A stretch of DNA of 64,000 nt from Polytrichum commune (Eukaryota > Streptophyta > Polytrichopsida > Polytrichales > Polytrichaceae): NCBI GenBank assembly GCA_950295325.1, contig OX485806.1, positions 58,523,169 through 58,587,168 on the forward strand, written 5' to 3'. Below are positions 3,394 to 31,142 of this stretch, one piece after another. The translations under genes were made by a program, and so were the position numbers. The stretch's first letter is position 1; the number at the start of each line of letters is the position of its first letter. The notes under the pieces were generated by a model. The model was not told where the DNA came from and ran no database searches. It saw nothing but the letters and a program-made list of their open reading frames with translations.

Positions 3394-6300
3394 AAAGTGA
3401 ATGCCGTGACCACGAGGTCTAAAGCACCCCCAGAACCTTATCCTATCCTCGATGAAAATAGTAGTGAGCCAAGTGCTGAGGAACTAAGGGATAATTTACG
3501 AGAAAATGATCCCAGAAATAAGTTAGTGATAGAGCCTAATGCGGTACCTGGAATTGCTACCACACCTATGTCTTTACCACAGGTAGAACTGGTGCAACCA
3601 GTTCTTATCCCTCTACCAACACCACCAATACCCCCGAGGCCTTACACTAGTTTGGAAAGACCAACATCATCCACTAACCCACAGACCCGACCAATAGAAA
3701 CTCGGTCCAAAACGGTACCTTATCAAATACCTCATGTAAGGAATTTCAAGTCTAGGACAAGCTTGAAACAACCCCGAACAATGGAATTAGCTAAAGGGTT
3801 GCAACAATATGATATAATGAAAGATTTGGATAATCTATGTCCTCAAATTACCATGAGGCAACTTCTGGCAGTTGCACCTCAATGTCGTACCACACTTGGT
3901 TCGGCAATGGTACGCAAAAGAGCCAAGGTTGTGGAAGTTAATGATGTAACCCTGAGTCAAGACCCTGGTGCACCGGCAGTGGATGTAATAATTGATGGAG
4001 TTCTAGTAGCGGGATTTCAAGTTGACACTGGGTCGAGTGTCAATCTCATGAGTATAGAGACAATGGAAGAATTAGGACTCACTAACATGGTTCCTACTTC
4101 TATCATCCTTAAAATGGCGGATCATACTTGTACTAGACCTTTAGGGCAATTACCTCAAGTCCCAGTTCAAATAGCGGGTCAGGAATACAATATTGATTTT
4201 GTCATTTTCCGAACCACTGATGCCATACAACCTATACCGGGAATATTAGGAAGACCATGGTTAATAATAGCTAAAGCTAAGGAAGATTGGGGTAAAGGAA
4301 CACTTACCTTAGGTAAAGGCAAGGAGAAAATGGTCTTACCTTTATTTCCTACACGGTACCAAGGCGAGACTCAAGATGAGGGAACCGAATTCACTACTGA
4401 TGGATATGAGACTGAGTATGAGGATAGTCCAATTCAATCTATTCATAACGTCGGTAATCACCAGAGATCTTATAACCCTGTAGGGATAGGAGAATATTTT
4501 ATCTCTATGAGGGACGATGATTTGGATAATGCCATTCTAAGTTGGCAGAATTCTTGCCCAATTAACAACGTTACTATGGTTGAGGAATCACAACCACATG
4601 ATAAAAAATTATTAACCTCTAACCCAAAGAAACGGACTACCCCATTAAAACCCCTCGAAAGTAAATTGCCTTCTTTTGAGGAAGATTGGGAAGATGCCAT
4701 GTTTTCTTACAATACACCTATTAAGAGTTATGTGTCTAAAGATGTTTATAAAGAAATGAATTTGGGAACCGAGGAGGTTCCTAAAATCATTAAAATATAT
4801 GAGAAATTGTCCAAGATTGAATGGCAGTATTGGTATAATTTCTTCAAAAGGAATATCAAAGTATTTGCATGGACATATAAGGATTTGAGAGGAGTCCCTC
4901 CTGAAGTATGCCAACATAAAATTGTACTTGAGGAAGGTACGGCCCCGGTCCGACAAAGACAATACCGTATGAATCCAAAATATTCCTTAATGGTCAAAGA
5001 GGAGATAGATAAACTTCTTGAGGCAGGGTTTATTTACAAAGTACCTTACAGTGAGTGGGTGTCACCCATTGTAGTAGTTCCAAAAAAGAATGGGAAATTG
5101 AGGATCTGTCAAGATTTCAGGAGACTCAATAATGTCACTAGAAAGGATTATTTTCCTTTACCTTTTACGGACACCATGTTGGATGCAGTGGTGGGGTACA
5201 AACGCTATTCATTTATGGATGGTTTCTCCGGCTATAATCAAATTCAAATATATGAACCACACCGTTGGTATACAACATTTACCACGAATTGGGGTATTTT
5301 TGCTTACATGGTGATGCCATTTGGTTTGTGCAATGCTCCAGCCACTTTTCAGAGGGTTATGACATAAACCTTTCAGGAATACCTACGTAAATTTATGGAA
5401 ATATTTTTGGATGATTTTGCTGTCTTTGGTGACGATAAAACCCATGCGGATTATCTCCAAAAATGTTTTGATAAATGTATGGAATTCGGCATTTCAATTA
5501 ATGCCGCTAAGTTAGTTTTCTTAGTACCCTTTGGAAGATTGGTAGGACACATTGTCTCTGAACAAGGCATAGCTACCGACCCCGATAAGATTGCTAATAT
5601 TGTATCTTTACCCATTCCTACTACCGTTACCGAGGTCAAAGGATTTCTGGGACACACTGGTTATTATAGAAGATTCATATTTAGACATGAGATAATAGCA
5701 ATGCCTTTGACAGAACTGCTTAAAAAGGGTGAGGATGTTCCAGTTTAGACGTCCGCATGCACACATGCCTTTAACACACTTAAGAGATAATTAGTGTCAG
5801 CTCCAATCCTCATACCTCCTAATTGGGAGAAAGACTTTCATGTATTTGTCGATGCGTCAAATGTAGCCATTGGATCAGTTCTAAGTCAAAAAGATGAAAA
5901 TGGACATGATCATCCTATTTATTTTGCTAGTCGTCAACTAGTGCAAGCCGAGAGAAATTATACAGTCACTGAACGAGAGGCCTTAGGCATGATTTTCTCA
6001 GTCCAAAAGTTCCGTCATTATCTACTAGGAAATAAATTTGTCTTCCATGTAGATCATGATGCCTTGAAATACATGATTAATAAACCTCAATTGAGTGGAC
6101 GAATTGCGAGATGGGTATTACTTTTGTAAGAGTTTAACTTTACCATTGAAGTTCGACCAGACAAAAGTCATGCAAATGCCGATCATCTTTCAAGATTAAA
6201 TGATGAATCTGGATCGGAACCCATTGATGATTCATTTCCCGATGCCCAATTATTTTATATTGATGTGATTCCCCATGAGTATGCGGAAATTATTGAGTAT

Positions 6301-7525
6301 TTACAAAATAATAAATTTCCCCCAGATTTTAATGAAAAGCAAAAACGTAGATTGGTCTTTAAAGCCATGTCTTATACTATTATTGTGGATACCTTATATA
6401 AACAAGGCAAAGATGGTATTCTACGTCGTGTTACAAGTTCCGAAATCCCTTTGATTTTAAAAGAGTGTCATGATAATATGGCGGGAGGTCATTTTGCGGG
6501 CGATGTCACGGCTAGAAAAATATTACATAGTGGATATTGGTGGCCTACCCTTTTTGCTGACTGTACAACATATACGAGACAATGTGATATGTGTCAAAGA
6601 ATTGGGAAGCCCATCGACTCTTCAGCAATGCCACTTACCCCTATCCTAGCCCTTGCCCCATTTGAGAAATGGGGAATTGATTTTGTTGGACCTATTAACC
6701 CTCCTAGTCGTCATGGACGTTATCAATATATTTTGGTGGCCACAGACTATGTCACTAAGTGGGTTGAAGCCGAGGCCACTCGGAAAGATGATAAACATGT
6801 CATAGCTAAGTTTCTAAGAGAAAAAAACTCTATCACGTTATGGTTGTCCAAAGGAATTGGTAAGTGATCGTGGCACTCACTTTGTAAATGATGTTATTAA
6901 AGAGCTCACGGAGAAATATAAAATTAAACACCGGCTCACTTCCCCATATCACCTGAGAGCTAATGGTCAAACTGAAAAGACTAATGGGATTTTGTGTAAA
7001 ATCATAACTAAGACAGTTCAAAATTCTATGACTGATTGGGATAGCAAATTATTAGATGCATTATGGGCTTATCGTACTACTTATAAAGTGACAACTAAAT
7101 TTACACCCTTTCAATTAGTTTATGGCCAAGAGGCTATACTGCCAGTTGAATTGGAACTCCCTTCATTACGCATCGCCATTGATGAAAGATTAAGTGATGA
7201 AGAATCCCTTCGCGAAAGAATAGCAATGTTAGAAAGGCTGGATGAAATCCGTAATCAAGCCTATCTAAACATGGCTGCCATTCAAAAATGGCGTAAGACT
7301 TACTATGATAGCAAAATGAAAAGTAAAACCCTCACCGCGGATGATTTAGTTTTACTCTACGATAGTCGTTTTCAAAAATTCCCAGGAAAATTCAAACTTC
7401 ACTGGATGGGCCCTTATAAAGTTAAAATTGCACATGATAATGGCTCATTTGAATTGATCGACTTTGAGGGTACACCTTTACCCACACGGATTAATGGCTA
7501 TCGTCTTAAAAAGTATCATACATAA
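3394..7525 (+). pseudogene. pol: Pol: protease, reverse transcriptase, RNase H, integrase (disrupted)
   Basis: The protease motif VDTGSSVN lies near 4020 and the ILGRPW flap region near 4240. Reverse transcriptase follows (about 4950-5700) with FCAMPFGL-type block MPFGLCNAPATF and catalytic FLDD in place of the usual YxDD. RNase H (about 5800-6180) has VFVDASN. Integrase has the HHCC finger (6460-6600) and the D, D, E catalytic residues (GIDFVGP, VSDRGTHF, NGQTEKTNG). Four in-frame stops break it at 5365-5367 (TAA), 5746-5748 (TAG), 5788-5790 (TAA) and 6127-6129 (TAA), and there is a one-base frameshift between about 6826 and 6857. Three stops sit where CAA (Gln) would fit. The copy is therefore dead for autonomous transposition. 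Confidence 0.92.
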
Positions 7526-9631: not shown

Positions 9632-12074
9632 ATGGGACCAGGGGAAACAGAGAAGGAGGAAGAAACCCCAAGACGATGGAGTGTGAAGCCCGTTGTGTTA
9701 CCTGATATCCCGTTGGCATTAAAAAGAGCATGGAAGGCCAACCAAATTAAGCTGGAAATGGCAGGGGTGTTTGAGTATTTGTGTTGGGTTTAGGCGATCA
9801 CTAAGGTGGCCTTTGTGGGCCATGTACTCCAATTTTTGGAAACGTACTCTTTGGGTATGGAAACGGCAAAAGTCGATGGCCAAGTGATTGAGTTTTTTGC
9901 CCCTGCGATAGGAAGACAATTGTGGATCCCATCCGATGGGATAGCGGAAGGACAATTGCTTGCCTTGACGAGAAAACAACACGAAATCATTTTTGAGGGA
10001 GAATTCCCTAAAAATACCCGGATCTAGAGGGGAGACAAGGCCAGGCAACACTGGAGGTTATGGTTCAAATTTGTGAACAGTTACTTGATTTTTCGACCTC
10101 ATCCTGAGACAATAGCCCAAAAATATGTCGTGGCCGCCGTTCAGACTTGGGAAGGGAAGAGGATCAATTGGTCCCAAATAATTCAACAACAAATGCATGC
10201 TGAGATTCTGCGGGTCAAGGTGGGAGTGCCACGGACAGTGGAGTTGTACTCAGCCTTTTACATATATTTTTTCTGCCGTGATGTCCCTACACCCCGAGGA
10301 CGACAGGACGCACCCTCGACGTCCCAAGCGGTGAGCCCCGTGCCGTCAAGCCCGGGAAATTCAGAGGAGCTGGTGGAGGACAATCACAGACTTAGGTTAC
10401 AGTTGCAAAAGTGTCGGGATACGTTGCGGGAGAAGACGGATCAGCTATGGGCGAAGAGCGAATTGCTCATTACCTGCCAATCCGAGAACGTGAAACACCT
10501 GCAGGAGTTGGCTGAGGCTATCCCAGAGAAGGTGGAGCACCAAAAGAGGCTTGAAGATAGCACAAAGACTATAGCCTCGAACCATGACCAGCTGGCCGCT
10601 CAGGAGAAAGAGATTATGGCCCTGCAAAGTAGGTTGGACCAGCAAGGAGGTGAATCCGAGCAATTAAACGATTGCCAAGACCAATTAAGGCGAGTTACAG
10701 AGGAGAAGGAGAAGTTAACCGAAAGGTTACGATCCTTGGAGGAAGAATTGACGCAGCAAAAAGCGTTGGCGAGTAACCTGAATGCGAGGGAACAATCGTC
10801 CATGACCTCGGTGGTTACCAGTCCGATTCGAGTTACTCCTGCGCCCAAAAAACTCTGTTTGGAATTGTGGAGCTGGGAATCCAGAGGACCGGTTCCCAAA
10901 GAATTTTTTGAGTTGTATGAAAGACAATGTCAATTTTTTCTTTTGTTTATAGGTTTGAAGAAGTCTGAATGGATTGACCATAGTCGTTTTAAAGAGCTGT
11001 GGCGTCAAAGTCTAGACTTGGGGATAGAAAATTTGTTTGTAGAAATTCTGGCCCGAAAACATATTAACCTTTCGGATCCCTACTCGGCTTTTATGGTAAT
11101 TGGGGATGTAGGGGCTAGAGTCTTGTTGTATTACGCGTCTCTAGAGCAGCAATGGGTCTTGAGATGTCAAAATACTAACCTTGTAGCGAAAAGAGAGGTA
11201 TCTTGGCAAGAATATGGAGTCCAAGTAAACTCACAATTTTATGGTCAGCCCCTAGAGAGTCTACAGTTTTGGCGGGATACTTTACAAGAATTGCTTAACC
11301 GAGTTAGGCACCCTACTTTTTTGACCAATATAATGTCCGCCAATGTTCAACGTCTATCCCTGTCACCGAGTGCGGCGTTTACCGGGTCTCATTATTTTTT
11401 TCAAATTGAAAAGACCACTAACAGACTAGAGAGGTATTTGATGGAGGTGAACACACAAAAGAAGCCCTTATTGAACCTCCATAGCCAAGTCCAGTTTGAA
11501 CTACCCCCAACTAACTTTTTGCCTACCATACCCCAGCTGCAAGTACCCGTAGTGGGGAGCCCATTGACTTTAAGATACCTGGGGCAATACGCTAACATGT
11601 TTGATCACCCGGGTGAGGAGCCTATACCCACCTGGACAGCCATCACCTGGCTACTTGAAGACTATGGCCTTTCCCGTAATGAGGAGGTACCGGCCGATAT
11701 TCAATACCGGAGACTTTCAAGACGATGGCCTGATGGACCACCAGCGGGGGTGGCGAGTCACCCACATTTTTGTCCGTGCCCCAGAAGAGGCAGGTGGAAT
11801 CCGGAAGCAACATTGTCAAGTGTCGAGTACAACTGGCCGTTAATTCAAGGGCCCAAATCAACACCAGCGGAGTGCAGAGCGACTTACAAGCATTTTTTCC
11901 AAGAGCACATTCATCACCGCGACCCTGTTTGTTTCCGAGCAGCCGTGTTTGCTAATGTGTTGGCCGATTGGTGTGGCCAGTGGAATGTGACCATTGATGT
12001 CAATCGTTTCCACGAAAGTCACCTTGAATTTTTACTCTTGTTGAAGTTGATGTATAGGCCTACGAGGTGGATTC
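9632..12074 (+). pseudogene. Extra 3' ORF of the element, coiled-coil protein, 5' part
   Basis: One reading frame runs from an ATG at 9632 to the nested insertion at 12074, broken only by TAG at 9791-9793 and 10025-10027. It resumes in the same frame at 24850 once the insertion and one copy of its target repeat are removed. The protein would be about 900 residues. It has a long heptad-rich coiled coil at about 10360-10800 (Leu/Glu/Gln/Lys-rich) followed by a globular region with many Trp, Tyr and Phe. I see no signal peptide, membrane segment or envelope hallmark, although Athila-type elements often carry an env-like ORF here. Function unknown; a structural or host-interaction role is only a guess. 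Confidence 0.6.
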
Positions 12075-12615
12075 TGTCGTGTAAACTAAGATCGTTAAAC
12101 ACAACAGATCGAGTGTCGTTGTCAACATCAATTAGCAAAATAAAATAGCAAACTAAAATGCTAAACAACCACCTCTTCAAGATGAGGGTTTATCTCTCCA
12201 AGCTTAAGAAACTAAAATGTCTCCTTACAAAGCTTAAGAAACTTTAAAATTCACACACAAGAGTCAAGCTATCTCTCACTCCACGAAAGGAGAATCCAAG
12301 AGTGCAAGTGGTGGAGAAAGAATGCAAAGGCTTTACTCATAATCTACTACACCATAGCCATGAGAAAGCAACAACAAGCTCTCTCTCTCTCTCAAAACAC
12401 ACTCACAAGACTTGACTTGACAACAATGGCAAGTCAAGAGGCCTTCCTCTCCATACAACCCCAATCCTATGTGGAGTTCATCCATGGAGTGGATGAACAA
12501 CTAACTAGGACTCCCAATGGAGTCTGTTACTCATCCCAACACACATGGACTCCTAATGGGGTCCATTTACTCCTAAATTGACGTAACTTAGCCCCCGATG
12601 TTACCTCACGTGACA
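12075..12615 (-). repeat. 3' LTR of the methyltransferase retroelement
   Basis: TGTCGTGTAAAC at the left and CACGTGACA at the right give TG...CA ends. Bases 12182-12615 match 24412-24845 with one difference seen (T at 12606 region versus C). The small ORF at 12360-12581 is repeated at 24590-24811 and is only LTR sequence, not a gene. Confidence 0.85.
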
Positions 12616-12617
12616 GC

Positions 12618-12726
12618 TGTCGTGTAAACTAAGATCGTTAAACACAACAGATCGAGTGTCGTTGTCAACATCAATTAGCAAAATAAAATGGCAAACTAAA
12701 ATGCTAAACAACCACCTCTTCAAGTG
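12618..12726 (-). repeat. Second partial LTR copy abutting the 3' LTR
   Basis: These 109 bases repeat 12075-12183 almost exactly and are separated from the full LTR by the dinucleotide GC. The corresponding 109 bases are missing from the right-hand LTR. The polypurine-like tract (AGTGGGGGCA on the minus strand, about 12726-12738) lies directly beside this copy. The arrangement resembles an LTR-LTR junction. Confidence 0.75.
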
Positions 12727-13048
12727 CCCCCACTAGCAGATAAGGAGCCCCTCCAATCGGCTAGGAACAAACACACTCATCGGTAGAGTTGTTGAACATG
12801 ATGAAGTTGTTGCTACATCTATACATATTTAATTGGGTAGTAGTAATCGAAGGAATTAAACTCGTGATTGACAAAGTAATCCAAGAACTGTAGGTTGGGT
12901 GCAATGTGAACCCCATCCTTAATCGCCTTCAACAATTAATGTTGAATTCTTGGATAACTCTTTCAATATGGTCTTAATTCCATAAAATTTCCAACCAACT
13001 AAATAACAACTTCACCACTAAAACATGTGGTAAACATCCACAAAATTC
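12727..13048 (-). other. 3' untranslated region of the methyltransferase retroelement
   Basis: AT-rich spacer between the pol stop codon and the LTR copies. It includes the purine-rich tract next to the LTR. No ORF seen. Confidence 0.6.
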
Positions 13049-16000
13049 TCAATCATGACCATTAACGGCCACGGAATGAGAGGCTTTCCGACAACGAGGA
13101 CAAACCCAATTGCCAGAAGGAAGAGTAAAAAGGGGAGGTGTCAAACATGCCATATGCCATCCACGTTGACATTGGTCGCACAATAACATTGTTGCAGCTC
13201 CTTTCTTCTCTCCACAAACATAACAAGGCAGACCCTGTGGTACAACCGCCAACTCGGGATGCACAGAGCTGTCGATGGGAAGGTGACATGGAGCACAATT
13301 CTTTGAATGCTCACGACATTCCCGTCCATCCTTGCCTTCAAGCAATAATATACCACTTGGCAAGACATCTTTTACCCGCAAAATCGTGCACCCAGCCTTG
13401 ACATCCAATGTCGTAGGCGCCTCCCGTTGCAAGTAAACATAATCCCCTTTGGAAAATCTACGAACCTGAGGTCGATAAGCTCCACTGCGGCTCCGGGCAT
13501 ACCGTAATGTATCACGATGTTGAGCAATATTTAAGTTCTCCATAGCCATAGGCATGGCCTTTTGGAAGAACGTTGCTCGGTCATGAAGACATTGAGCCCA
13601 AACATCTGGATCATCCAAGTTTACCACGGGAGCCAATTTCTCTCGCACCGAGCTAGGTAAAATTGGTTCCCGTCCATACAAGAGTTGGTAAGGACTATAG
13701 GATGCCAAAGATGCTTGCCTGCTGAAACGATAACCCATTGCTATCCATGGTAACATCAAGTCCCAATCGCGATGGTTGCCATGAAGCAATCCATACTTCC
13801 GCAAACCGCGCTTAACCGTCTGAACAACTCGTTCAGCTAAGCCATCTGCCTCAGGGTGATCTCTGGAAGTTGTCCGATGATCAATCAAAGCCTTGGTACA
13901 CAAAGCCTCGAAAGATCCAAGGAATTCTCTCCCTTGATCCGTCAACACCTCTGCAGGTGCTCCAAGCCGTGCCAAAACTCGATCAAGAAATGTCATAGCC
14001 GCCAATTCTGAGGAATTTTGGGGAAGAGCCACGAGTTCAATCCACTTACTAAAATGCTCCACCATCACAAGCACATACTTGGAACCACGTGGAGTGATAG
14101 TAAGCGGTCCGGAAAAATCCAAAGACCAACGATATCCCAAGCCCATAATAGGTAAAGGCTGAAGTTGAGGTGACAAAGTATTAGAACTTGACCTGACCCG
14201 GTCACATACTTCACACCGAGAAACATAAGTGACAACCTGTTGATACATACCAGTCCACCAATATTGGTTGCGCAACATAGAGTGCGTCCTTCGCACTCCA
14301 AAATGTCCAAGCTCCTCGTGCACTTGCCGCACCAAAGAAGCTCTTTGATCTGGCCTTGGAACGATGCGCCTCGTTCCGTTCGGCCACACACGAAATAACA
14401 AGCTGTTTGCCCAACGAAACCTTGTTATCCGGTGACTAACTCTAACTCGCTCCATAGCAGATAGTCCAAGAGGAAATATCCCTTGTTGAAGTTTGTGCAA
14501 GACCGTCTGGTCTTCCCACACATCACTAACAACGAGAGATTTATCAACCTCCTCATCTTGTTCTTTTACAAGGATCTCAGCAGCCAATCCCGACATCATT
14601 GTGAGATATGTGGCAGTATACCAACCCGGCACTGCCTCACGATCACAATCTCCATGCCACCTGGCTCCAGTTAAATCTTCATCTGAAGGACTTGGATTGC
14701 GAGACAATCCGTCTGCATCCAAGTTGGCAATTCCTGCTCGGTGAACAACTTCAAAATCATATTCCTGAAGTAACAATGCCCACCTAGCAAGTTTCCCGGT
14801 GAGCTTATCTGATTCCATAAGCCATTTTAAAGGCTGATGATCAGTCACCAAAGTAAACTTTTGCCCATACAAATAAGGTCGAAAATGTGCAATGGCCCAA
14901 ACGGCCGCCAAGGCCTCGCCTTCATAAGAAGAATAATTAGATTCAACACTATTATTGCTTTTAGATGCATAAGCCACCACATATTCCTTTCCCTCTTCAT
15001 CTTTCTGTGTCAATACCGCTCCCAATCCCACTGCACTCCAATCCGTGTGCAATTGAAAAGCTCTAGACACATCCGGGTGTCGAAGCACTGGCGTTGAACC
15101 GAGCCTCTGCTTCAATGTATCAAATGCCTGTTGTTGTTCCCGACTCCAAATCCATGGTTGGTCTTTCCCCGTGAGAATGGTAAGAGGTTTGGCAATCAAA
15201 CTAAATTTTTTGACAAACCTCCTATAATAATTTGCCAATCCTAGAAATGCACGAAGCCATGGTACATCACTAGGTGCGGGAATTTTGTGCAAAGCATCCA
15301 CCTTCGTCTGTTGCACACCAAGACCGCCAGGAACAATCATGTGGCCTAAATAGGGCAATTGATCATGGGAAAACTTACATTTTCCATGATGTAAACGGAG
15401 TCCCCACCGTTGAAGTCGTTCAAATACCGCTTGCAAATGTCTCACATGATCCTGTGGACTATTACTAAAGATGATAACATCATCAATGTAACATCTAGCA
15501 AACAACAAACCAGCCAATAATTGGTCCATCACCCGCTGAAATTCAGCTGGTGCATTCTTGAGACCAAATGGCAGAAATTTCCAATGATAAAGCTGATCCT
15601 TGCCATCTTTATCAATTCCCCAAAATGCGGTCTTCACCCGGTCCCCCAACAACAAAGGTAATTGGTGATAACCAGACCTCAAATCCAGAGTGCTGAAGAT
15701 TCTATAAAATCCCAGTGCATCAAACAACTCCTCCGGCATCGGCATTGGATATCGATCCGACTTGGTCTTGCGGTTGACTGGACGATAATCACCACACATC
15801 CGTTTTTCCGTCCAGTTGCCAAAGATATCCTTCTTTAACGGCATAACCGTGGCACAAGCATACTCTCCATTGGAGAGTTCAATCAATTCCGCTGCCAATA
15901 ACTCTTGACATCGAGTTTGAACACCCAACCTTTCAGAGGTACTAAGTCTGTACGGCCGTCTGAAAATAGGGTGGTCGTCCTCGAGTTGAATACGAACAGG

Positions 16001-16192
16001 TTTACCTTTATATCCTTCAAGATCATGAAGACTAAAGGCAAAACAATTACGGTAAGAGCGAATAAATGCCCGTACCTTTCGTGCTTCGGCACCAGTAAGC
16101 TTTGGCCCCACTTTAATTGGCCAATCGTCAAACTCCGTGGTTTTCTTCTTCATAGAAGGATTGCCACTTGGTGCCAGCACAGCCTGTGATTG
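13049..16192 (-). CDS. pol: Pol: reverse transcriptase, RNase H, integrase, C-terminal PHD finger
   Basis: An intact frame of about 1,045 residues. Reverse transcriptase spans about residues 60-300, with LPFGLKNAPAEFQRVM and catalytic YIDD near residue 231. RNase H follows (TDWSAVGLGAVLTQ, about 370-480). Integrase has an HHCC finger (HEELGHFG...CEVCDR, about 640-690) and DDE residues in LDFSGP, LTDQGREF and LAERVVQ. The C-terminus (about 987-1031) is a clear C4HC3 PHD finger: CYVCGE, LLCDQC, GWHMAC, WVCPRC. PHD fingers read the histone H3 tail; here one sits where other plant Ty3 integrases carry a chromodomain, so a targeting role is inferred. The frame follows the methyltransferase part in phase after a TAG at 16193-16195. 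Confidence 0.93.
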   Translation of the reverse strand, partial: QSQAVLAPSGNPSMKKKTTEFDDWPIKVGPKLTGAEARKVRAFIRSYRNCFAFSLHDLEGYKGKPVRIQLEDDHPIFRRPYRLSTSERLGVQTRCQELLAAELIELSNGEYACATVMPLKKDIFGNWTEKRMCGDYRPVNRKTKSDRYPMPMPEELFDALGFYRIFSTLDLRSGYHQLPLLLGDRVKTAFWGIDKDGKDQLYHWKFLPFGLKNAPAEFQRVMDQLLAGLLFARCYIDDVIIFSNSPQDHVRHLQAVFERLQRWGLRLHHGKCKFSHDQLPYLGHMIVPGGLGVQQTKVDALHKIPAPSDVPWLRAFLGLANYYRRFVKKFSLIAKPLTILTGKDQPWIWSREQQQAFDTLKQRLGSTPVLRHPDVSRAFQLHTDWSAVGLGAVLTQKDEEGKEYVVAYASKSNNSVESNYSSYEGEALAAVWAIAHFRPYLYGQKFTLVTDHQPLKWLMESDKLTGKLARWALLLQEYDFEVVHRAGIANLDADGLSRNPSPSDEDLTGARWHGDCDREAVPGWYTATYLTMMSGLAAEILVKEQDEEVDKSLVVSDVWEDQTVLHKLQQGIFPLGLSAMERVRVSHRITRFRWANSLLFRVWPNGTRRIVPRPDQRASLVRQVHEELGHFGVRRTHSMLRNQYWWTGMYQQVVTYVSRCEVCDRVRSSSNTLSPQLQPLPIMGLGYRWSLDFSGPLTITPRGSKYVLVMVEHFSKWIELVALPQNSSELAAMTFLDRVLARLGAPAEVLTDQGREFLGSFEALCTKALIDHRTTSRDHPEADGLAERVVQTVKRGLRKYGLLHGNHRDWDLMLPWIAMGYRFSRQASLASYSPYQLLYGREPILPSSVREKLAPVVNLDDPDVWAQCLHDRATFFQKAMPMAMENLNIAQHRDTLRYARSRSGAYRPQVRRFSKGDYVYLQREAPTTLDVKAGCTILRVKDVLPSGILLLEGKDGRECREHSKNCAPCHLPIDSSVHPELAVVPQGLPCYVCGEKKGAATMLLCDQCQRGWHMACLTPPLFTLPSGNWVCPRCRKASHSVAVNGHD

Positions 16193-16781
16193 CTAGTCTG
16201 TGGAGAGGGTAACACCTTTGCCCCCATCATCTACACTTGAATCCAAATGCGTATCCTCTCCACTACAATCAGTTTGTGTAGCTAAATAGCTACCCACATA
16301 TGAAGTATCACCAAGAAATAGAAGTGGAAACATTTTATGGGCCTCCAACTTCCCAAACTCTTGGGCCAAAGCTGAAAAAACACGTTGGGCTCGAAGCTCT
16401 TCCGCAACATGAAGTTTCAAAGGAAATAATCCCTCGGTGTCATTGACCTCAATGTGATCCTTGGATTGCGGCTCCATTGCCCCCTGACCATTGTTCTCTG
16501 CCCTCAGAGTAAGCAATTGGTCATCCATACGTTGTTGAGCAGCAAGACAAATTCCAATTATCCACACAATGCTATTAAGATCCATAGCTTGCCCCAATAG
16601 GAAATGTCTCTGACCTTCCTGAAGCCTATGAGCAGCCGTGGTACCTGTAAGAAAACCCATGGCGCGTTCCCGCTCATCTGCCGTAGGCTCCTCATAAGTT
16701 TGGGATTTTGAGTCCCAAACCATGCCAGGTCCACGAGATCGAAATGCAAAAGACTGTGGATATGTCACAAAAGTAGGTAGT
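16193..16781 (-). pseudogene. C5-methyltransferase, C-terminal part (motifs IX-X)
   Basis: This frame continues the methyltransferase after the solo LTR insertion. ERERAMGFLTGTT fits motif IX and LLGQAMDLNSIVWI fits motif X of C5-cytosine methyltransferases. Before these is the variable target-recognition segment (SFAFRSRGPGMVWD). When the LTR and one GTAGT copy are removed, its frame joins that of the N-terminal part without a shift. About 120 further residues of unknown role precede a TAG at 16193-16195. The reverse transcriptase frame continues in phase beyond the stop, whose next codons are CAA TCA. Confidence 0.85.
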
Positions 16782-19619
16782 TGTGGTACTTTTGGGCCAC
16801 CCCCTTTCGAGGGAGCCTAAAAGTATCACACAAGCCCTTCGGTGAAGGTGGCCTGCATTTGCAGGCGCCCAAGCCGAACCCGGATGATAGGTGTATAACG
16901 TGAGTAGTTAGATTTTTAAGGGAGATTAAATATGCGTCGTAATACCTCCGGAGGTTAGGCCTTAGTTTTTTACTAGTGTGGCTTTAAACTCCACTAACCA
17001 ATTTCATATCTAGTTCTAACCTTAACCTACAACCTATTCTACGCGCAGACGCACCAGCCTTGAAACCAAGGCAATCCTAATTTGTGAATTGGGATGGTTC
17101 TGATACACCCAACCGGGTGTGACTCATACCACCCTAACTCAACGAACGGAATAACGATAATTTGATGGACCATTCAATTCTTCCTATTTATTTATTTAGT
17201 TCTATTTAGTTTTCTAAGCGGGGGAACTTGGCCTAAGTCCCACCCTTCACACAAATTCCTTCTTAATTACTTACTTTTGTTTGCACGTCCTAACTTACTA
17301 CATTAACATATTAGGCATCACCCCTTACCTCGGGTCTCTTGCCAACAAGGGTTTACGATTTATTTGGTATGTTTTTATTGTTAAATGTGTTTACACTGGA
17401 TAGACCACGAAATGCAACTCAATGGGACCAGGGTGACGGGCGACCTGTAGGTTCAACCTGTTGCGCAATCTTCATAAATTGGGGCCATTACTCCCAATCT
17501 ATGGGGCCAACAACATAATAGTGGATTCGCGGGTCATTAACCCCACCTTTCCACCAACAACATTCAGAGTGGTCGTGTCGGTGATTAATCCGACTTACCA
17601 CACACGAAACTTGCTAATAAATGAAGCTACTACCACAAAACATACCAAGGGCCCCGAAAACAATGGAATTGGGTACTCCCTTGGCGGTCAAGTGGTCAAG
17701 CCACTTGACCTTACGAGATAGGTGAGTGGGTTTAGAGATGCGTACCTTAGCCGTGCTCCCTCCAATCCTAAATGGAAGGCTTAAGGTTAGTTAATTTACC
17801 TCAATTTTCCTCGGTTGATTTGGGCTTGATGTAGGCCGAGCCGCTACCTTCTTCCTTGCTCCACTTTCCGAGCGTCGACCTTGCCTCCTTCTTTGTAACT
17901 AGTTTGGTAGTAAGCGTACCTTAGTTAACAATTAAAATATAAAGTGTTATTCTTCCCTGTAATTTAATCCTAAGCATAATATTTATACTTAGTGCACCAA
18001 ATTATCTTTCCAATGATCTAAAAATCACTCTAATCGGATAAGAAATGCAAAAGTTATGAGGGTTGGAAGTGTGAGGTCGATTCAACCGACCCTTCCAACC
18101 CACCTATCTACCTTCTAACTTCAAAAATTCATAGCACATTCCTTACTACTTGGATCTAGGCTTTCCTTATACCATTGGAAAGCTATGAACAAGCTCTAAC
18201 TAGAAAAAATTATGACATCAGCAGGTTAAGGTAATAGAAATTCAGCGGACTCCTTGTAACACAGCAGTCAATCAAGAAGGCTTAAACTATGTATCTCGCC
18301 TTCAACAATTCATATCTAATTCAAATCTTAGTCAAATCAAACGTTCTATATGACCCTGGAGAGATATTAAAAATATTTATTTGATAAAAATATGTGATTA
18401 GAAAGGTAAGCCGAAGTGAACCCAGCAGGTCCTCTGTAATGCAGCAGTCAACCAAAAGTTCTCAAACTATGTGTCCCATCTTGCACAATTCATATCTAAT
18501 TCAAATCATGCTCAAATCAAATGTTCTAAGCCATTTTGGAAAGCTACACAAAAGTTCTACTTGGGAAAAATATAATTTCTTGGAATTAAAATTCCTATTG
18601 GGCTCGCAGGTCTGATCCAGCAGCCGCTACCCACAAGACCACCCAGTTTTTCTACTCCATCTTTGAAAATCCATAACTAATTGTCATCTCAACCAAATCA
18701 CAAATGGGAAACGGCTATGGATAGCTATATGAAATCTCTCTAAGAGAAAAATGATAAGTATCTTGTTCTAGCTTTTGAACTAAGCCTTCAGGGCATTGGC
18801 AGATGAGGTCTATAATGCCTCTACTCAAAATTCTACCATCCAACCTACCTCTACAAAAGAAGGAATCATTTTGTTGGTGTGTTAATAAACACACATTCTA
18901 ACTAGGAGAGAGAGTAGAGGAGGTTGTCAAGCCTTTCTTTTAGACCATTGAGAATACATGCTAAAGGATTTTTTCCTAACTACATTGAAGCAGGGCTTCG
19001 CCCAAAAACTAGAGAAAGAGAGAGTGCTACAAGGTGGAAGGAGGGGTTTTTAAACCCTCTCACAAAAGGGTTGGACCCCTCCTCCACCGGATCCATTTTT
19101 CAAACCCTTTCCCGAAATTTTGGCTCGGGGGTTTTCCCGGTTGAGGTTGCCACCCTCTCGCCGAGGTGGCTCCGACAAAAAACCTTTAGAAATCTTTCTA
19201 ATTTTTCCGCCATCGAGTTGGCAAGGGGGCAAGTGGGCAAGTATCCCCCTTGCTCTCTTTCTTTTTTGTCTTCAAAATTCTTCACGCCGATTTTATCTTC
19301 TTACGTAAAACACCTCCAATAGTCTTGTGTGCCTCACACTAACTAATAAACTAACACTTGCTTGGCTAGCATCTACTAACATTTGCTTAATAACTAGCAT
19401 CTACTAATATTTGCTTAGCTAGTTGTTTTTACTAGCTAGCACATTTTTTCTACTTTGCTATCTTCTAGCACTACTTAGTTTCATTTTGACCTTCCTTCTT
19501 CTAGGCTAAATGCTAAATGAACTAATTTTCCCTAAATTCCCTATCAATTCTAACTTTTAATGCTAACATTCTAACTAAAAGTGATCCCGCAGAGTGGTGG
19601 ACCACTCAAAGGGTTCACA
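16782..19619 (-). mobile_element. Solo LTR (copy 1) of a 2.84-kb LTR family, inside the methyltransferase gene
   Basis: The segment starts TGTGGTAC and ends TTCACA, is flanked by perfect 5-bp duplications GTAGT (16777-16781 and 19620-19624), and has no internal coding region. It has TG...CA ends and copies at 44230-47026 and 51084-53922 with different target duplications. That is the pattern of a solo LTR. The middle (about 18040-18720) consists of degenerate tandem units of about 120 bp built on CATATCTAATTCAAAT. The small ORFs in it recur in the other copies and show no protein motif. Confidence 0.88.
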
Positions 19620-22600
19620 GTAGTACACCTCTCGGAATTCCCACCTTGTTAATTAATGCAAATGGCAAGGTGTCATCCTTGGTAACTGCCAAGGAAGCAC
19701 GATGATCATCTAAAATGTCATCCACCTTGCGATCCATAAGGCAGGGAATGTGGACAATCGCCGCTGAAAACACCCGAGGTGATACCAAGTTGGTCCAAAA
19801 TCAACGAGGCCGATGAGCAAAGGATCCCAAAGATACAGCATCCAGAAATGTTGGAGTACCCAGAATTTGGTTAATGTACTCACCATCCTTCACCACTTTG
19901 TGCCGGGTATCATCCAATAATGGTACATTTTCGAAAATGTACCCTAGCGGAGTTGATTGGTAGGTAAACCACCATTGCGTCAATCGCATCAAAACCGCAA
20001 ACAAACTAGACCTAGGATCATCCAATCCCTGGCCAGTTCCTGCCCGCGAATGGCCTTGACAAGGCCATCCTGCAATAATCAAATCCACGTGGCCCAACCT
20101 TCTCAAATCCTCATCACTAATCATAGTGATATCTTCAGGAAGTTGACCACAACATCCATGAATGGCAGAGGCTGACAATTGTGCGGGGTATCTCAACAAC
20201 AATTGTTGGATGTGGTGTCGGACGGCTTTGTTGGCTGCATACCCATTGTCCACATGAATATATCGCCAAACTGTAATTCCAGCTTCCAACACTGCCGCCA
20301 AACCTGTGCCAATGCCTCCAAAGATCTCCACAAGGACAATACCTTCAGGTGATGGTTGCCAACGAATGGGTTGAGCAAAAGAAAATGAGGATAAAGTTGG
20401 AGGTGCCTCTCCAAGCTCCAAATCCGCTACAATGTGTCGACAATGGTCGGATAATTCCTTAGGAGTTCGCCATGGTGGAGGTGGATCCTTGAAATGTCGA
20501 GCAGGAATTTGAAAAGATGGTAAAAATTGTTGTTCTGCCGCATTACAAGTGTAGTCCATTGTTTCCTCCAATAAAACTGGAGCACAATGCAAATCTGCAA
20601 CTGAACCGCTGCAACCAAACATTGCCTCCGCAACCATAGTCATAGCAGTGGCTGCAAATGTGACGGGAATAAATACCTTCCTGCCATCTCCAGTGGACCA
20701 TCCCGGTCTAATCCATGCCTCTTCCGTCCAATTATCCAAACCAAAGCCAAGTGGGTAAAGAGCTTGCTGACCAACAAGTATATCATAGTTGGTAGCATTA
20801 GTAACAACACACTTCATTGACATATGAGTGTAAGTAGGCCCTGCCCCCACATGAAAAATCAAACGTAGAGGTGCCTTGGTGTAACCTGCTGCACGTTCAG
20901 TGCCCCCTACTGAAGTCACAATAGTAAATGGACAAGGATCCAAGCTTGCTGGCGTCAATCCAAGACTGTCAGCAAGTCCTTTGCCAATCATAACCGGTTG
21001 AGCACCGGAATCCATCATAACTCTCAGTGGTGTAGCACGGATAGTGGGCATATCCGTGCGTGAAACGACAAACAAAGATTTGTCGTTCATCAGCCGTACA
21101 ACTCCAGGTTGCAAATTATGCCGTTCGCGAGCAGGCCTTGCAGAAATGTCTGCAAGATATGCCGCTCCCGACGCATAATTCGAAAACGACGTATCCACTG
21201 CTGAAATTGATGCTGGAGGAATATCAGTTTGCTTACCAAAAGCAATGATCGCCGCATCCGCAAGACTCGCTCGCAAATTGGCTAAGTCCTCCACCTCCTC
21301 AACCACAGGTACGTCAACCACAGCTTGGGATACTTGAAGGGATGGCAAATCCGCCTTACCTTCTAACATTCTCCCGGCTAAATGAAAAACTGCAGCAGGC
21401 TTGAAATCCGAAGCCATAAACTCCAAACCCGAGAAAATTGGCATATGGAGAAATTTATATGCCAATGCCTGCGTAACATCCTTCAAGATGGAATCCCCAT
21501 CTCTCAAAGGTACAGGGTTTTTAACCCCAACAACAGTGGTGTTTACCAATCCAAATGAAAGAGGTAAACGTGCTTGACCAATTTGATCAGCTGGTCCGGC
21601 ATGGCGAGGATGTAGCACCTCGTTGCTACCACCACTCGTAGAAGCCACCGCATCTGCCAATGTTTGTGAGCGAGTAGAAGCCGCCGCCACCACCTCCCCA
21701 GCTGCTCCAAACATATACATGTCCGAACCCGAGGTGCCACCACCCACATGCGGCTCAGAAATTTGAGCAAAAGATGCAGAAGATTTGAGCTTTTGCTCAA
21801 GCTCTGCCATCTTAGCCTCAAGACTCTGCTCCCTTGGAGACTTTCCAGTGACATAACTGGCAGGCCGCATCTCAGGATGAAGTTGGAAACAATGATCCAC
21901 ATCGTGATTAGTGCCACCACAATGGTTACATTTCAATTGTCTCTTCTTAGAATTGTCCCCTGCCTTTACTGGTTCCATCTTTTGTTTTAATTTTCCCAAA
22001 GGCTGAGTTTTCTTCTTCTTAGGACAATTGGGATCATTCTTCGAATGACCAGCTTCTCCACAACCCCAACAATGCAAAATCTTTTGCTCCTTGACGGGTT
22101 GAGTCTCAGCTAAACTACTAGTAGCTGTGACAATTCTTCTTGGTTTCGGACTCTCTGTCATCCAAGATACCATATCCGTGGCATCATGTTGGCAAAGAGC
22201 CCGATCACATCTCTCGACCACGGCAAACGCTTGTGCAAGCGTAGCCCGGCCCTCGTAGTCGAGGATAATCTGAGGTGATGCCAACTCAAGTAGCCGCTTG
22301 TCAATCTTAGACAAAAAGATTTTAACAAGCTGACTCTCAGCAAAAACACCTCCCGACTCCACAGCAAATCGCGCGAGTCGCGTATACATGGTCCGTGGAG
22401 TATCATCCTTCTTTCGGCGGAAATGCTGGATGCGCTGCATCTGGTCTCGCCGAAACCCACCATACTCCACTTCCAAATGTGCGACAAATTCAGTAAGGGG
22501 ATTAAACGGAGGTGGTGGACCAACAGCCGTCAATGCTGCCTGTGTAGCATGTGCCACCCGTGAAAGGGTTGCCGTGCTACTGCTAGCCACCATTGGCCCA

Positions 22601-23133
22601 AGTGCCAGTTCCGTGTCCTTAGACTCCGCCGGCGATTCCTCCTCCTTTAAGGTGGGTGGAGCTAAGGTAGCAACCGCCCCATCCTTAAGGGCTGAAATGA
22701 GCTCAACCCGAGCCTCCCAATACTGCTCCACCTCCCGAAGTTGTCGCTGATGACCCTCTGTCCAACGTTCATAAGTTTGGAGTGCCTCATACTCCAAATG
22801 TTGAGGCAGAAGTTCAAAGGCATACCAATCATTGAAATTGGAAGACCTTTGGCATTTCTCCTTAATCCAGGTACGAAACCGGAGTTTCCAATCGGGCAAG
22901 GAAATGCCCCCAGCTCGACCTGAAAACCGATCACGCACTGAATTGTGGCGATCGTCCTCCATTTCGTCGAACGTGCCGACACTCCAAATCCGAAGCCTAC
23001 TAGTAGTGTCCAACGCCGAAATAGGCTCAAAAGCCTCGTTGGTATCTACCTCTGGCTCAAGATTTGTGGTATGCACGTCCTCCAAGTAATCTGGTGATGG
23101 AGATCGATAATATCGGCTCCTAGTTTGCACCAT
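19620..23133 (-). pseudogene. Gag - aspartic protease - C5-cytosine DNA methyltransferase (N-terminal part)
   Basis: The ATG at 23133 opens a frame of 1,110 residues to a TGA at 19801-19803; coding similarity continues to 19620. Gag occupies about residues 60-330, with zinc knuckles CWGCGEAGH (about 355) and CNHCGGTNHDVDHC (about 402). The protease motif MMDSGAQPVMIG is at about 705. From about 925 comes a C5 methyltransferase: motif I VEIFGGIGTG, motif IV GWPCQGHS with the catalytic Cys (about 1020), motif VI ENV (about 1066), and motif VIII-like AHRPR, stop, FWTNL. The FW...NL end recalls the DNMT3/DRM family. The TGA falls inside this conserved block, so it is a mutation (CGA or TGG to TGA would fit). 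Methyltransferases captured by retrotransposons are known from a few algae and protists. Confidence 0.92.
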
Positions 23134-24411
23134 AAAATAATCACTTGAGTACCTGCAACTATCTACAAGGTAATGGCAACATGCACATGTTGCGGGCTAT
23201 CTAAATGGCAATCCCTTGCCAAATGCCAAGTGTTTATGCCCCCAGAATTCCAAAATTGTGCAAAGGTTTGAGATTGGTAATTAAAATGAAAAATCAGCGT
23301 TGAAAAGACTCATTTCCAAGGTGATTATGGACTCCAATCAACAAACTAAGTGCACCAATGGACTCCTAGGAAGATTTCACACAAATTAGGCTTAAATTTC
23401 ACTCCAATCGGAGTTAATTTGCTCCCAAAAACAAAAATCAGCGTTGAAATTAATAATTTCAGCAATGATTTTGAATTCCAATCAACAATCCAATTACACC
23501 ATTGGATTCCTTGGCAAATTTCACACAAGATAGGCTCAAATTCCACTCCAATCGGAGCTAGTATGCCCCCAAATTTGAACCTCAAAGTTTGTGAGAATTG
23601 GATGCCAAGTTTGAAAGGTGAAAGTAAAAATGTGAAAATAAAATAAAATAGAAATAGAAATATTTGTTTTAATTAAACAAAGAAAAAACAAAAACAAAAA
23701 CAAAAACAAAAACAAAAAACAAAAACGAAAAAAAATAAAAATAAAAATAAAACTTAATTAACTTAATTAATTTAATTTAACTCAACCTAACTTAATTAAC
23801 TTAAACTAATGAACCTAATTTAATTAAGCTAATTAATTTAATTCACTTAAACTAATTAACTAACTTAATTAACTAATTAAGTTAACTAACTTAATCAAAT
23901 CAAGGGCTTACCTTGAAACAAGGGGGGGGGCCAGGCTGGCACCACCCGCCCCTGCCGGCCCGCTGCCAGTTCGCCGTGGGGCCCGGCCGCCGCCCGCCCG
24001 CCCGCCCCCGGCCCGGGATCTGCCACAGAGTTTAGAACCGGAGCTCCAGGAGGGTCTGGTGAGCTCCGGATCCGTCCGGAGCTCAAATTAAATTAAAACT
24101 AAATTGGATTTTGATTGTGGTTTATGTTTGTATTTAAATTAAACTTTGCTTCACAATTTGCAAGCAAGAAAATGTGACTTGAGAATCTCGAAACTAAATG
24201 GAATCTCAAGATTCAAACATCAACAATTGAAGAAAATACAAGAGACAACAAAAGAAAAATGGGAAGATTTCTCTCAAAATCTTCTTGAGGATTGCAAGAA
24301 ATGACGAACTAAGCTTTCAAACACTTGTATTACTCATTTGCTCTCATTACTGGGCCATTCTAGCTCAGAAATGCAACCAAAAATGAAAAATTTGAACAAT
24401 TGTTGTCAAAT
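23134..24411 (-). other. 5' leader of the methyltransferase retroelement
   Basis: No gene is seen. It holds two and a half tandem units of about 118 bp (23285-23590), an A/T run of AATTAACTTAATTA repeats (23745-23900), and an abrupt GC-rich block (23925-24075) with a G9 run and CCCGCCCGCCCGCCCCCGG. No standard primer binding site was found beside the LTR end at 24412. Confidence 0.6.
23285..23590. repeat. Tandem repeat, about 118-bp period, 2.5 units
   Basis: Units share AAATCAGCGTTGAAA, TGGACTCC or TGGATTCC, and CACTCCAATCGGAG with moderate divergence. Confidence 0.7.
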
Positions 24412-24845
24412 ATGAGGGTTTATCTCTCCAAGCTTAAGAAACTAAAATGTCTCCTTACAAAGCTTAAGAAACTTTAAAATTCACACACAAGAGTCAAGCT
24501 ATCTCTCACTCCACGAAAGGAGAATCCAAGAGTGCAAGTGGTGGAGAAAGAATGCAAAGGCTTTACTCATAATCTACTACACCATAGCCATGAGAAAGCA
24601 ACAACAAGCTCTCTCTCTCTCTCAAAACACACTCACAAGACTTGACTTGACAACAATGGCAAGTCAAGAGGCCTTCCTCTCCATACAACCCCAATCCTAT
24701 GTGGAGTTCATCCATGGAGTGGATGAACAACTAACTAGGACTCCCAATGGAGTCTGTTACTCATCCCAACACACATGGACTCCTAATGGGGTCCATTTAC
24801 TCCTAAATTGACGTAACTTAGCCCCCGATGTCACCTCACGTGACA
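24412..24845 (-). repeat. 5' LTR of the methyltransferase retroelement (lacks the last ~109 bp)
   Basis: It matches 12182-12615 with one difference seen and abuts the ATTC target repeat at 24846. The terminal 109 bp present at 12075-12183 are absent, and the leader begins at once. Confidence 0.85.
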
Positions 24846-25103
24846 ATTCGGATGGTTGAAGTTATGGCCATGACTCATTTCATCGCCGGAGCCCACAAGT
24901 GTTTGATAAATGAATTTCCTTATACACGGGCTGGACCGTTTGAGCGATTCCTGAGATGGCAACGAATGAATGCACCCGAGGTAGTGGCCCGCGACGAGGA
25001 TTTACAACGGGCAATTGAGAAGATGGAGACAAGAGAGTTGAAGAGAGCAGCCGAAGATGCAGCCCAACGTAACCAACCTCCACCGAAGTTGCTAAGAAGA
25101 TAG
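24846..25103 (+). pseudogene. Extra 3' ORF of the element, 3' part after the nested insertion
   Basis: The downstream part of the coiled-coil ORF split by the element at 12075-24845. The frame across the junction is continuous when one ATTC copy is counted, which proves the two parts were one gene. The part ends in a charged helical segment (Glu/Arg/Lys-rich, about 24990-25070) and a stop at 25101-25103. The polypurine tract and 3' LTR follow directly, so this is the C-terminus. Confidence 0.65.
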
Positions 25104-29605: not shown

Positions 29606-31142
29606 ATAATGAATTCAAAAATAGTAAAGGTGCATGGGTTTAGGGTACATGAACTAAATATAGTACTACATGAATTGAAGATTTTCAAATGTAAAGAGTT
29701 CAAATGAAGCAAGAAGGAATCGTATTACCGTGGATCATTGGAAATACTTCCAGTCCATTGCTAATTTTTATTATAACAATCCAAACCAAAACATGTCATT
29801 TTTTGACATTCAAATATATGGTACTTAATAGACCATTTACAATACTACTCACACTCTACAATACCAGCAAGTCAAGTAGTCGCATGACCTTGTTATAGGT
29901 ATATGTAGGTGCATGAATGAACTTGTCACTCTCGTAATCCACCTTACACAAAAATCTAAACACATAATAAAGATGTTTACAATACACCCATTTTCCTTTC
30001 TTTCCCAATGCATGAGAGGACATTTTCGTGAAATCCGGGCATGTGCAATGCGGGATGTCGCCAATTGTGACATGATATGTGATATCTTGCTTGGAGACAA
30101 TGTTGATTATCACTCCAAAGCCCGGATATGGAATGGTAGTGACCCCAACCACATAGTAACACTCCATGAGTCCGGCACTCTCCCATTTGTTTTTGTGATC
30201 CGCTAGCGGTGTTGTTGGATTACGACGCACTGTCTTCCCAAACCTGAATGTAGGGTGGGCATCCGGGTTTGGTGGCATAGAAAAATGCGAGCGAGGGATG
30301 GGGAGAGTTGCAATTGTTGAAAGCCTACAACGAGGGGACAATGCCTCCCTCTGCTGTAGTTGAAATCCAACATCTTCAAGTGCCAAAACCTCCTCTCTCG
30401 ATAGATTGGTACCTATCTTCATCGGCCATATGTTGGGTACTATAGGCCAGTCCAACACATATTTCTTCTTACTGCCACTCACACAACGCTTGATGTCGTC
30501 AGGGCAAAACCAAAATTCATACTCCACATTGTTGGGAGATCGAAATTCCTTCCTGAGCCCTTTGTATGTTGGGGCAGGTGTGCCATGTTTCCCAGTCCCG
30601 ATTTTAGCATTGCACATAGTCCATGTAATGGCCTGTAGTGCCCAACATCGTTTGGCTGAGTTGGGTGGTAATTTTGCAATGTGCCAGTTGGAAGTAAGAC
30701 AATCAGTCTCTAACACGGATGTAGTATGAGCCACACCATGAATTGCAGAACTCAACGATTCCTCTATGCGTTGACGAGTTGCTCGGGTGTTGGGACGAAG
30801 AATGGAATACTTCACTTTGTCGGGTCGATGAGAGTCACAAATCAGCACCCGGTGGTAGGTTGAGTTTGCGTTTGGTGGAACCAAAGAGTTATGACCCTTC
30901 CAATGCACAATCTCTAGTGTTGACGTCTTCTGCCCCTGGGTAAGACTTCATGGCATAAGCCAACATTTTTGGATCTCCACACCAGGCAGCTGTTTTGAGT
31001 TTCAAGGAGGCCGAATCAGGACCTTTACCATCAGACCCCCCTTTCAACCATGTCCGGTAATTTGCAATTTGCATGAAGGCACGGATCATGTCGTCCACTG
31101 TAGCTTCATATAAACAAGTCATCTTGTTGCCGGACTGTTGGA

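Follow-up and report, generated by a model that had tools for sequence, protein, structure and literature searches.

Among described retrotransposons, the closest counterpart of the one analyzed here is KnitGypsy-Dnmt3 from the alga Klebsormidium nitens (2018), in which a DNMT3 domain is embedded in a gypsy-type Pol, the repeats are DIRS-like and the DNMT copies are under purifying selection, according to the main text of PMC5890265. Our element occupies positions 12075–24845, reverse strand, of a 64,000-nucleotide stretch of contig OX485806.1 (further referred to as the window) and carries a C5-cytosine DNA methyltransferase (MT). The A-coding-B-A-B arrangement of repeats is typical of DIRS elements, and the same structure is described for the K. 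nitens elements in figure legends of de Mendoza et al. (PMC5890265). A related case presented there is SymbioDIRS-Dnmt3 of Symbiodinium, whose enzymes perform de novo CG methylation. As stated in the cited passages of PMC6338049, Ty3/gypsy and DIRS elements with DAM or DCM occur in, among others, green algae and charophytes and are said to be absent from land plants such as tracheophytes. Retrotransposon-embedded DNMT3s are reported in streptophytes and dinoflagellates (PMC12344493, cited part), and five DNMTs of the MET, CMT and DRM classes are listed for Marchantia (PMC5784723, cited part). A search of titles and abstracts, which left most subscription papers outside its scope and is weak evidence of absence, yielded no land-plant report of MT-bearing elements, of gypsy elements with both a PHD finger and an MT, or of split-repeat elements with an integrase.

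We assign a probability of about 0.72 to the reading that the window element is a damaged, recently inserted member of a Ty3/gypsy-type family with many copies, an open reading frame (ORF1) for Gag, protease and a DNMT3, a PHD-ended Pol probably made by readthrough, and split repeats; methylation of the element cDNA by the MT is a more tentative part of it. This reading draws on the observed anatomy, repeats and target duplications, on copies with uninterrupted ORF1 and on the long conservation of the MT. Like KnitGypsy-Dnmt3, the element combines a gypsy-type Pol, a non-permuted DNMT3-type domain in the polyprotein and DIRS-arranged repeats, and it is probably a land-plant variant of the same kind. 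In contrast to the algal host of KnitGypsy-Dnmt3, its host is probably a land plant; in addition, the window element has an MT that ends ORF1 before a conserved UAG, a PHD finger on Pol (the term is not mentioned in the main text of PMC5890265) and 4-bp duplications, features that the algal element may share. SymbioDIRS-Dnmt3 likewise has a DNMT3 in a retrotransposon with A-coding-B-A-B repeats but, by the same main text, a tyrosine recombinase, whereas the window element has a DDE integrase and target duplications. Beyond the MT itself, what is new here is the split direct repeats with 4-bp duplications, the UAG-ended ORF1, the PHD-ended Pol and a related clade with the MT between RNase H and integrase.

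The first-pass annotation regarded a land-plant element with this domain order as notable. Such a host is indeed likely, judging from the Marchantia relatives described below and from the dirigent genes: 42 dirigent matches, 41 of them above the cut-off, were found in the genome containing the window, whereas 14 control genomes, with no known alga among them, gave none. To our knowledge, dirigent proteins are confined to land plants.

Split direct repeats and insertion sites

The features of the ends are as follows.

12075..24845, reverse strand: full inserted element, 12,771 bp with the 2,838-bp foreign solo long terminal repeat (LTR) counted in; from repeat ends, target duplication and interrupted ORF
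12071..12074, no strand: target-site duplication ATTC, left copy, flanking the element
24846..24849, no strand: target-site duplication ATTC, right copy, flanking the element
24413..24845, reverse strand: terminal repeat A1, 433 bp, 5' end of the element; 1 mismatch to A2
12618..12725, reverse strand: internal repeat B1, ~107 bp, directly upstream of A2; 1/107 mismatch to B2; region kept in L001
12616..12617, reverse strand: GC dinucleotide linking B1 to A2, not at the outer ends; in 8/8 fetched 3' ends and L001
12183..12615, reverse strand: internal repeat A2, 433 bp; from repeat comparison
12075..12182, reverse strand: terminal repeat B2, 3' end of the element; completes A-coding-B-A-B

The boundaries proposed by the first-pass annotation, 12075–24845, proved to be the exact ends of the element: it is flanked by the ATTC duplication, and the neighbouring ORF (10073–12074) resumes in frame past 24849 once one ATTC copy is removed. 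In the element sense, the repeats follow the order A1 - coding - B1 - GC - A2 - B2. At its outer ends the element reads TGTC...GACA, and GACA-GC-TGTC stands at the internal junction. Since A1 and A2 of this copy differ at 1 of 433 bases, the insertion appears young. We use the label gypsy-type with reference to Pol, because the ends lack ordinary identical LTRs and consist of split direct repeats instead. The short target-site duplication expected of Ty3/gypsy elements is present (4 bp), and so is, by Pfam, the order RT-RNase H-integrase (DDE), where RT stands for reverse transcriptase. The repeats of the window element and its copies have the DIRS arrangement. DIRS elements have a tyrosine recombinase and are not known to make target duplications; here there are an rve integrase and 4-bp duplications instead. 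The alternative that the ends are ordinary LTRs beside a duplicated 108-bp flank did not survive the repeat analysis of the window and the copies.

Twelve copies were fetched from the same genome (L038–L049), a small sample picked by similarity to the window, and 3' ends were obtained for eight of them. The A-coding-B-A-B arrangement is present in seven of the eight, including one with a shortened B2 (L057) and one (L051, the same copy as L039) that additionally bears tandem partial A pieces and an extra B at the tip. In the eighth, L055, an inverted piece of A replaces B2. The tandem and inverted pieces in L039/L051 and L055 are unusual replication products. All six fetched copies with both ends available have perfect 4-bp duplications (GAAT, CAAG, AAGA, ATCC, TGAT, ACCA), and their A1 and A2 differ at 0–5 of ~432 bases. 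No A1 lies within the fetched stretches of L038 and L043.

A more distant relative, L001, was the single locus found in the genome-contig collection. It is an uninterrupted element on a contig of 9,285 bp that is assigned to a cyanobacterial metagenome-assembled genome but is most likely eukaryotic contamination; the contig ends are identical over 127 bp, as in a circularised assembly. The B1-GC-A2 junction is kept in L001 nearly letter for letter amid diverged surroundings.

Coding regions and methyltransferase type

The coding features of the window copy are the following.

19801..23133, reverse strand: ORF1 as open here, with gag-like region, protease and first MT part, ending at a premature TGA; from ORFs and Pfam
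20770..21033, reverse strand: aspartic protease region; PF13650 1.2e-4, 23.1 bits against a cut-off of 24.3, DSGAQ motif
19801..20379, reverse strand: MT piece A, motifs I, IV, VI and start of VIII; PF00145 8e-11, PDB matches HaeIII and DNMT3
19620..19800, reverse strand: MT piece B, same frame, from the premature stop to the solo-LTR insertion; 39–60% identity to 18 relatives, BLASTP
16782..19619, reverse strand: solo LTR inside the MT, 2,838 bp, TG...CA ends, ACTAC duplicated at 19620–19624 and 16777–16781; 99.3% identical to window 51084–53922
16193..16781, reverse strand: MT piece C, motifs IX and X plus ORF1 tail, ending with TAG at 16193–16195; 43–63% identity to 18 relatives, BLASTP
16187..16195, reverse strand: in-frame TAG CAA TCA between ORF1 and ORF2, probable readthrough site; same in L001 and in own-genome copies
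13049..16192, reverse strand: ORF2, 1,047 codons, open, with RT, RNase H, integrase and PHD finger; from ORFs and Pfam
15335..15811, reverse strand: reverse transcriptase; PF00078 2.7e-30
14759..15073, reverse strand: RNase H; PF17917 4.7e-38
13853..14353, reverse strand: integrase, H2C2 and rve core; PF17921 2.7e-17, PF00665 1.1e-12
13091..13225, reverse strand: PHD finger, C-terminus of Pol; PF00628 4.3e-10

The initial description of a Ty3/gypsy polyprotein with a C5-MT between protease and reverse transcriptase agrees with Pfam, where PF00145 matches at 8e-11, RVT_1, RNase H and rve are well above the cut-off and the aspartic protease is just under it. The gag-like region was assigned by eye from its position and zinc-knuckle-like motifs, with no Pfam gag match. 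MT motifs I–X were also said to occur in order and in a single frame. Their order and place stand; the single frame does not hold in this copy, where a stop at 19801–19803 follows AHRPR, at a place occupied by Trp in relatives, and the solo LTR parts motif VIII from IX and X. Judged by the premature stop and the split, the MT of the window copy is dead. An intron or programmed insert at 16782–19619 was ruled out, as the insert is a solo LTR with a target duplication. Its copies at window 51084–53922 (99.3%) and 44230–47026 (mostly 76–87%) have opposite orientations. Chance motifs as the source of the MT signal were excluded by conservation in dozens of relatives and by the DNMT3 profile and fold matches.

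A UAG followed by CAR-YYA is a readthrough context, and two same-frame ORFs parted in this way are found in the window, in L001 (TAG CAATCA) and in the copies. The TAG ends ORF1 in all 11 own-genome copies that reach the site and is followed by CAATCA in ten (L048 differs); the part of ORF2 available for them (184–228 codons) contains a stop in four of the 11. Pol is probably produced by UAG readthrough, because the UAG is in frame and the CAAUCA is conserved. As the MT ends ORF1 ahead of this stop, it would be made at the level of Gag, above that of Pol. Chromoviruses are Ty3/gypsy elements whose Pol has a C-terminal chromatin reader, the chromodomain; the reader of the window element is a PHD finger, and the MT and split repeats come in addition.

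The profile of 18 relatives matched DNMT3A best among PDB entries (1.7e-14), followed by other DNMT3s, HaeIII (1.9e-7), 4onj (8.7e-6), which we take to be a DRM, and HhaI; DRM2 scored 2.4e-3. The structural model of one relative, P0012, has a mean predicted local distance difference test score (pLDDT) of 63.9; the MT core is mostly at 75–93, with weak stretches at 423–432 and 573–583. Its best fold matches are DNMT3 catalytic domains (template modeling score 0.82 of target, 21% identity), and all 50 listed fold matches are DNMT3 entries. The motif order is I-IV-VI-VIII-IX-X, not permuted as in DRM. By the profile and fold of the relatives, the MT is of the DNMT3 type. A DRM origin was rejected on the weaker match and the non-permuted order, and a DNMT1 or CMT origin since neither was named among the best 60 of 68 PDB matches.

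Constraint was estimated by the Nei–Gojobori method from the window and L001, whose synonymous sites are saturated, so that the ratios of nonsynonymous (pN) to synonymous (pS) differences are rough. The pN/pS values were 0.18/0.74 for MT piece A, 0.33/0.74 for piece B, 0.28/0.73 for piece C with the ORF1 tail, 0.21/0.71 for the gag part, 0.34/0.80 for the knuckle and linker part, 0.07/0.68 for RT and 0.04/0.73 for the integrase. These values indicate that the motif I–VIII portion of the MT is clearly constrained and that the MT as a whole is under weaker constraint than Pol.

Copies in the genome and relatives elsewhere

The genome searched comprises 407.8 Mb in 64 contigs, including the window. 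A 401-bp ORF1 probe gave 170 candidates; the 40 that were scored comprise the window and 39 others at 99% identity. With a relative, P0003 (1,354 aa), as the query, there were 999 candidates; the best 34 were scored, and all of them align over residues 1–1354 at 67–68% identity and span gag, protease and MT. The MT is hence not confined to the window copy, and the outcome that the first-pass annotation named as refuting its proposal, an MT in this copy alone or one not conserved among copies, did not occur. Copies with an uninterrupted ORF1 exist: 14 of these best 34 have no internal stop, a fraction that is not representative because the best candidates were scored. Eleven of the 12 fetched copies include the MT, which is open throughout in three of these 11; in L044, because of an insertion, the fetched stretch ends before the MT. 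The 12 copies and the window contain 15 in-frame ORF1 stops, all at different sites: three in gag-protease, three in the linker and nine in the MT. The MT is stop-rich despite the youth of those copies that could be dated. Judging by the copies, the family is real, widespread and recently mobile in this genome.

Differences of the C/T type between the ORF1 of the window and of the copies are enriched at CG (184 per 264 sites) and CHG (165 per 274) over CHH (363 per 1,093); the counts pool 12 comparisons against one sequence and are not independent. The pattern fits methylation of the copies, by whichever enzyme.

One MT protein search gave 21 matches and another, with an E limit of 10, gave 42, the weakest two having E values of 5e-4 and 4; the pol search, with an E limit of 1e-60, gave 293 matches, 120 of them listed. 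Organism names are attached to four matches of the MT search, all from the liverwort Marchantia polymorpha, and, in the pol search, to matches from the green algae Haematococcus lacustris, Volvox reticuliferus and V. africanus; none in either MT search or among the 120 listed pol matches is named Klebsormidium. Three viral-contig scans contained no relative, and one further scan gave 28 loci with distant MTases. Four Marchantia proteins, P0025 (Mp_8g17980), P0026, P0028 and P0029, join a gag-like region (by eye) to a DNMT3-type MT of the same clade as the window, three of them (not P0025) with the protease motif DSGAQ; unlike the window element, they have no pol on these proteins.

The domain scan covered 171 sequences, 169 proteins and two from the window. 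Of these, 26 have the order RT-RH-MT-INT-PHD (RH, RNase H; INT, integrase), five have MT-RT-RH-INT with or without PHD, and 31, including ORF2 of the window, have RT-RH-INT-PHD with no MT in the same ORF, so that it may sit in a separate ORF1 or be absent. In the polyproteins with the first order (such as P0035 and P0044; P0086 of V. reticuliferus is MT-INT-PHD) the MT, pol and PHD finger are homologous to those of the window element, but the MT lies between RNase H and integrase, and both trees separate the two types. The MT tree has 84 rows, with MT matches shorter than 200 aa (window excepted) and P0048/P0049 left out; the RH-MT-INT class (48 rows) includes proteins with no visible RNase H but with the MT directly before the integrase. 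One branch parts this class from all protease-MT forms (Shimodaira–Hasegawa-like approximate likelihood ratio test, SH-aLRT, 100), and the same split is supported at 100/100 on 59 rows (without P0084, the window and four rows flagged for length; class capped at 26). The Marchantia MTs nest in the protease-MT clade alongside P0021 and P0023. An identical split (SH-aLRT 100) divides the 63 rows of the pol tree; its RH-MT-INT side contains one row with no detected MT, P0141, and on the other side the five MT-RT rows, rather than forming one clade, are interspersed with rows whose ORF has no MT. The MT and pol distances are correlated (Mantel r 0.79 over 31 proteins, 0/5000 permutations as high; r 0.81 within the 26), which indicates that MT and pol are co-inherited. 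These trees, built without host DNMT3, are compatible with a single relocation within Pol as well as with two related captures.

Two of the relatives, P0036 and P0044, have an extra C-terminal region past the PHD finger; in P0036 it resembles, by eye, an N6-adenine methylase with an altered motif. P0049 (2,136 aa, annotated RVT_1 and DNA_methylase), matched at E 4 only, is perhaps another MT-bearing retroelement, or a chance match.

Possible function of the methyltransferase and neighbouring features

In the favoured reading, the family would produce Gag-protease-DNMT3 from ORF1 and, through readthrough of the in-frame UAG, RT-RNase H-integrase-PHD from ORF2. The B1-GC-A2 junction may represent both complete cDNA ends joined, as in a circle or an end-to-end junction, and trimmed at integration; the DDE integrase would then insert the DNA, producing the 4-bp target duplications. 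At the Gag level there could be many MT molecules per particle, and newly made double-stranded cDNA might be methylated at CG. So marked, the cDNA could pass for silent host chromatin or be protected until it integrates, or the PHD-integrase complex could be helped to settle in marked chromatin. Methylation of the element cDNA is our best guess for the MT function, a tentative one; hiding from or mimicking host silencing, as the first-pass annotation had it, may be the purpose.

Several observations weigh against this reading. The MT of the window copy cannot work. Private stops are about eight times denser in the MT than in gag-protease (9 in 3,971 codons versus 3 in 10,509 over the 13 copies, window included; Fisher p 0.0008 when all codons are counted and 0.006 when stop-prone ones are), so the MT may be dispensable in cis or decaying in this genome. 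MT pieces B and C are less constrained than piece A. The C/T enrichment agrees equally with host methylation and self-methylation, and the land-plant call leans on dirigent genes and their presumed embryophyte specificity. The SymbioLINE-Dnmt enzyme, tested in 2018, produced no DNA methylation in yeast (PMC5890265, main text).

The same stops might mean that the MT is a structural or dead passenger domain with no catalysis, and in the RH-MT-INT class Glu often replaces the motif IV Pro (24/48 domains) and Thr the motif VI Val (22/48). Retention of the catalytic Cys in 77 of 84 MT domains (4 gaps, 3 substituted) and of the motif VI Glu in 81 of 84, with the low pN of piece A, makes this improbable. 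Action in trans on host or competing-element DNA, silencing rivals or disturbing host silencing, is an unlikely alternative to methylation of the element's own cDNA: many copies expressed at the Gag level could yield much enzyme, and effects on the host epigenome are discussed in the main text of de Mendoza et al. (PMC5890265), but packaging with Gag-protease would confine the MT to particles. We give similarly little credence to a self-limiting role, in which new insertions are marked for host maintenance methylation, capping the copy number and sparing the host; the CG and CHG enrichment suggests that copies are or were methylated, yet the family has recently expanded to many copies. That the ends are ordinary LTRs rearranged by recombination is very improbable. 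Extra or inverted repeat pieces occur in two of the eight 3' ends (L051, L055), but the arrangement itself recurs in seven, with duplications in all six both-ended copies and the B1-A2 junction kept in L001, and KnitGypsy-Dnmt3 is described with identically arranged repeats (PMC5890265, Fig. 4 legend). Finally, the interrupted MT of the window copy might suggest a recent capture of a host methyltransferase fragment by this copy alone, with no family-wide meaning. The MT is present family-wide in this genome and also in relatives with as little as about one-third identity, which refutes such a capture, and we give it virtually no weight.

A broader and rather doubtful suggestion is that DNA methylation is integral to the replication of split-direct-repeat retrotransposons. 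Before integration, the mark would distinguish completed double-stranded circles or ends from incomplete ones or from host DNA, and the pairing would recur in DIRS with Dam-like enzymes, in SymbioDIRS-Dnmt3 and in this gypsy clade, being kept in the green lineage through one MT relocation within Pol. Were methylation a part of split-repeat replication, the repeated carriage of MTs by elements with a joined-end cDNA intermediate would be explained. A high-copy family with uninterrupted ORF1 copies in a probable land plant, together with the Marchantia homologues, makes it testable why a transposon carries the silencing enzyme of its host. The combination of DIRS-like ends with a gypsy-type integrase, like the differing MT position of the sister clades, is also relevant to the exchange of replication parts among retrotransposons.

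No tRNA was found, and Rfam gave 0 matches at gathering scores. The ORF interrupted by the element (10073–12074 and 24850–25103, forward strand; ~750 aa) is of unknown family, its first part having no Pfam match above the cut-off. Five long ORFs at 35537–38106 (forward strand) and 29856–33175 (reverse strand) have no Pfam match at E 0.01. A Copia-type Pol fragment (Pol_BBD) lies at 47372–47902, and in a second Ty3/gypsy-like element at 1570–7525 (forward strand) the pieces of gag, zinc knuckle, protease, RT and integrase are spread over separate frames.

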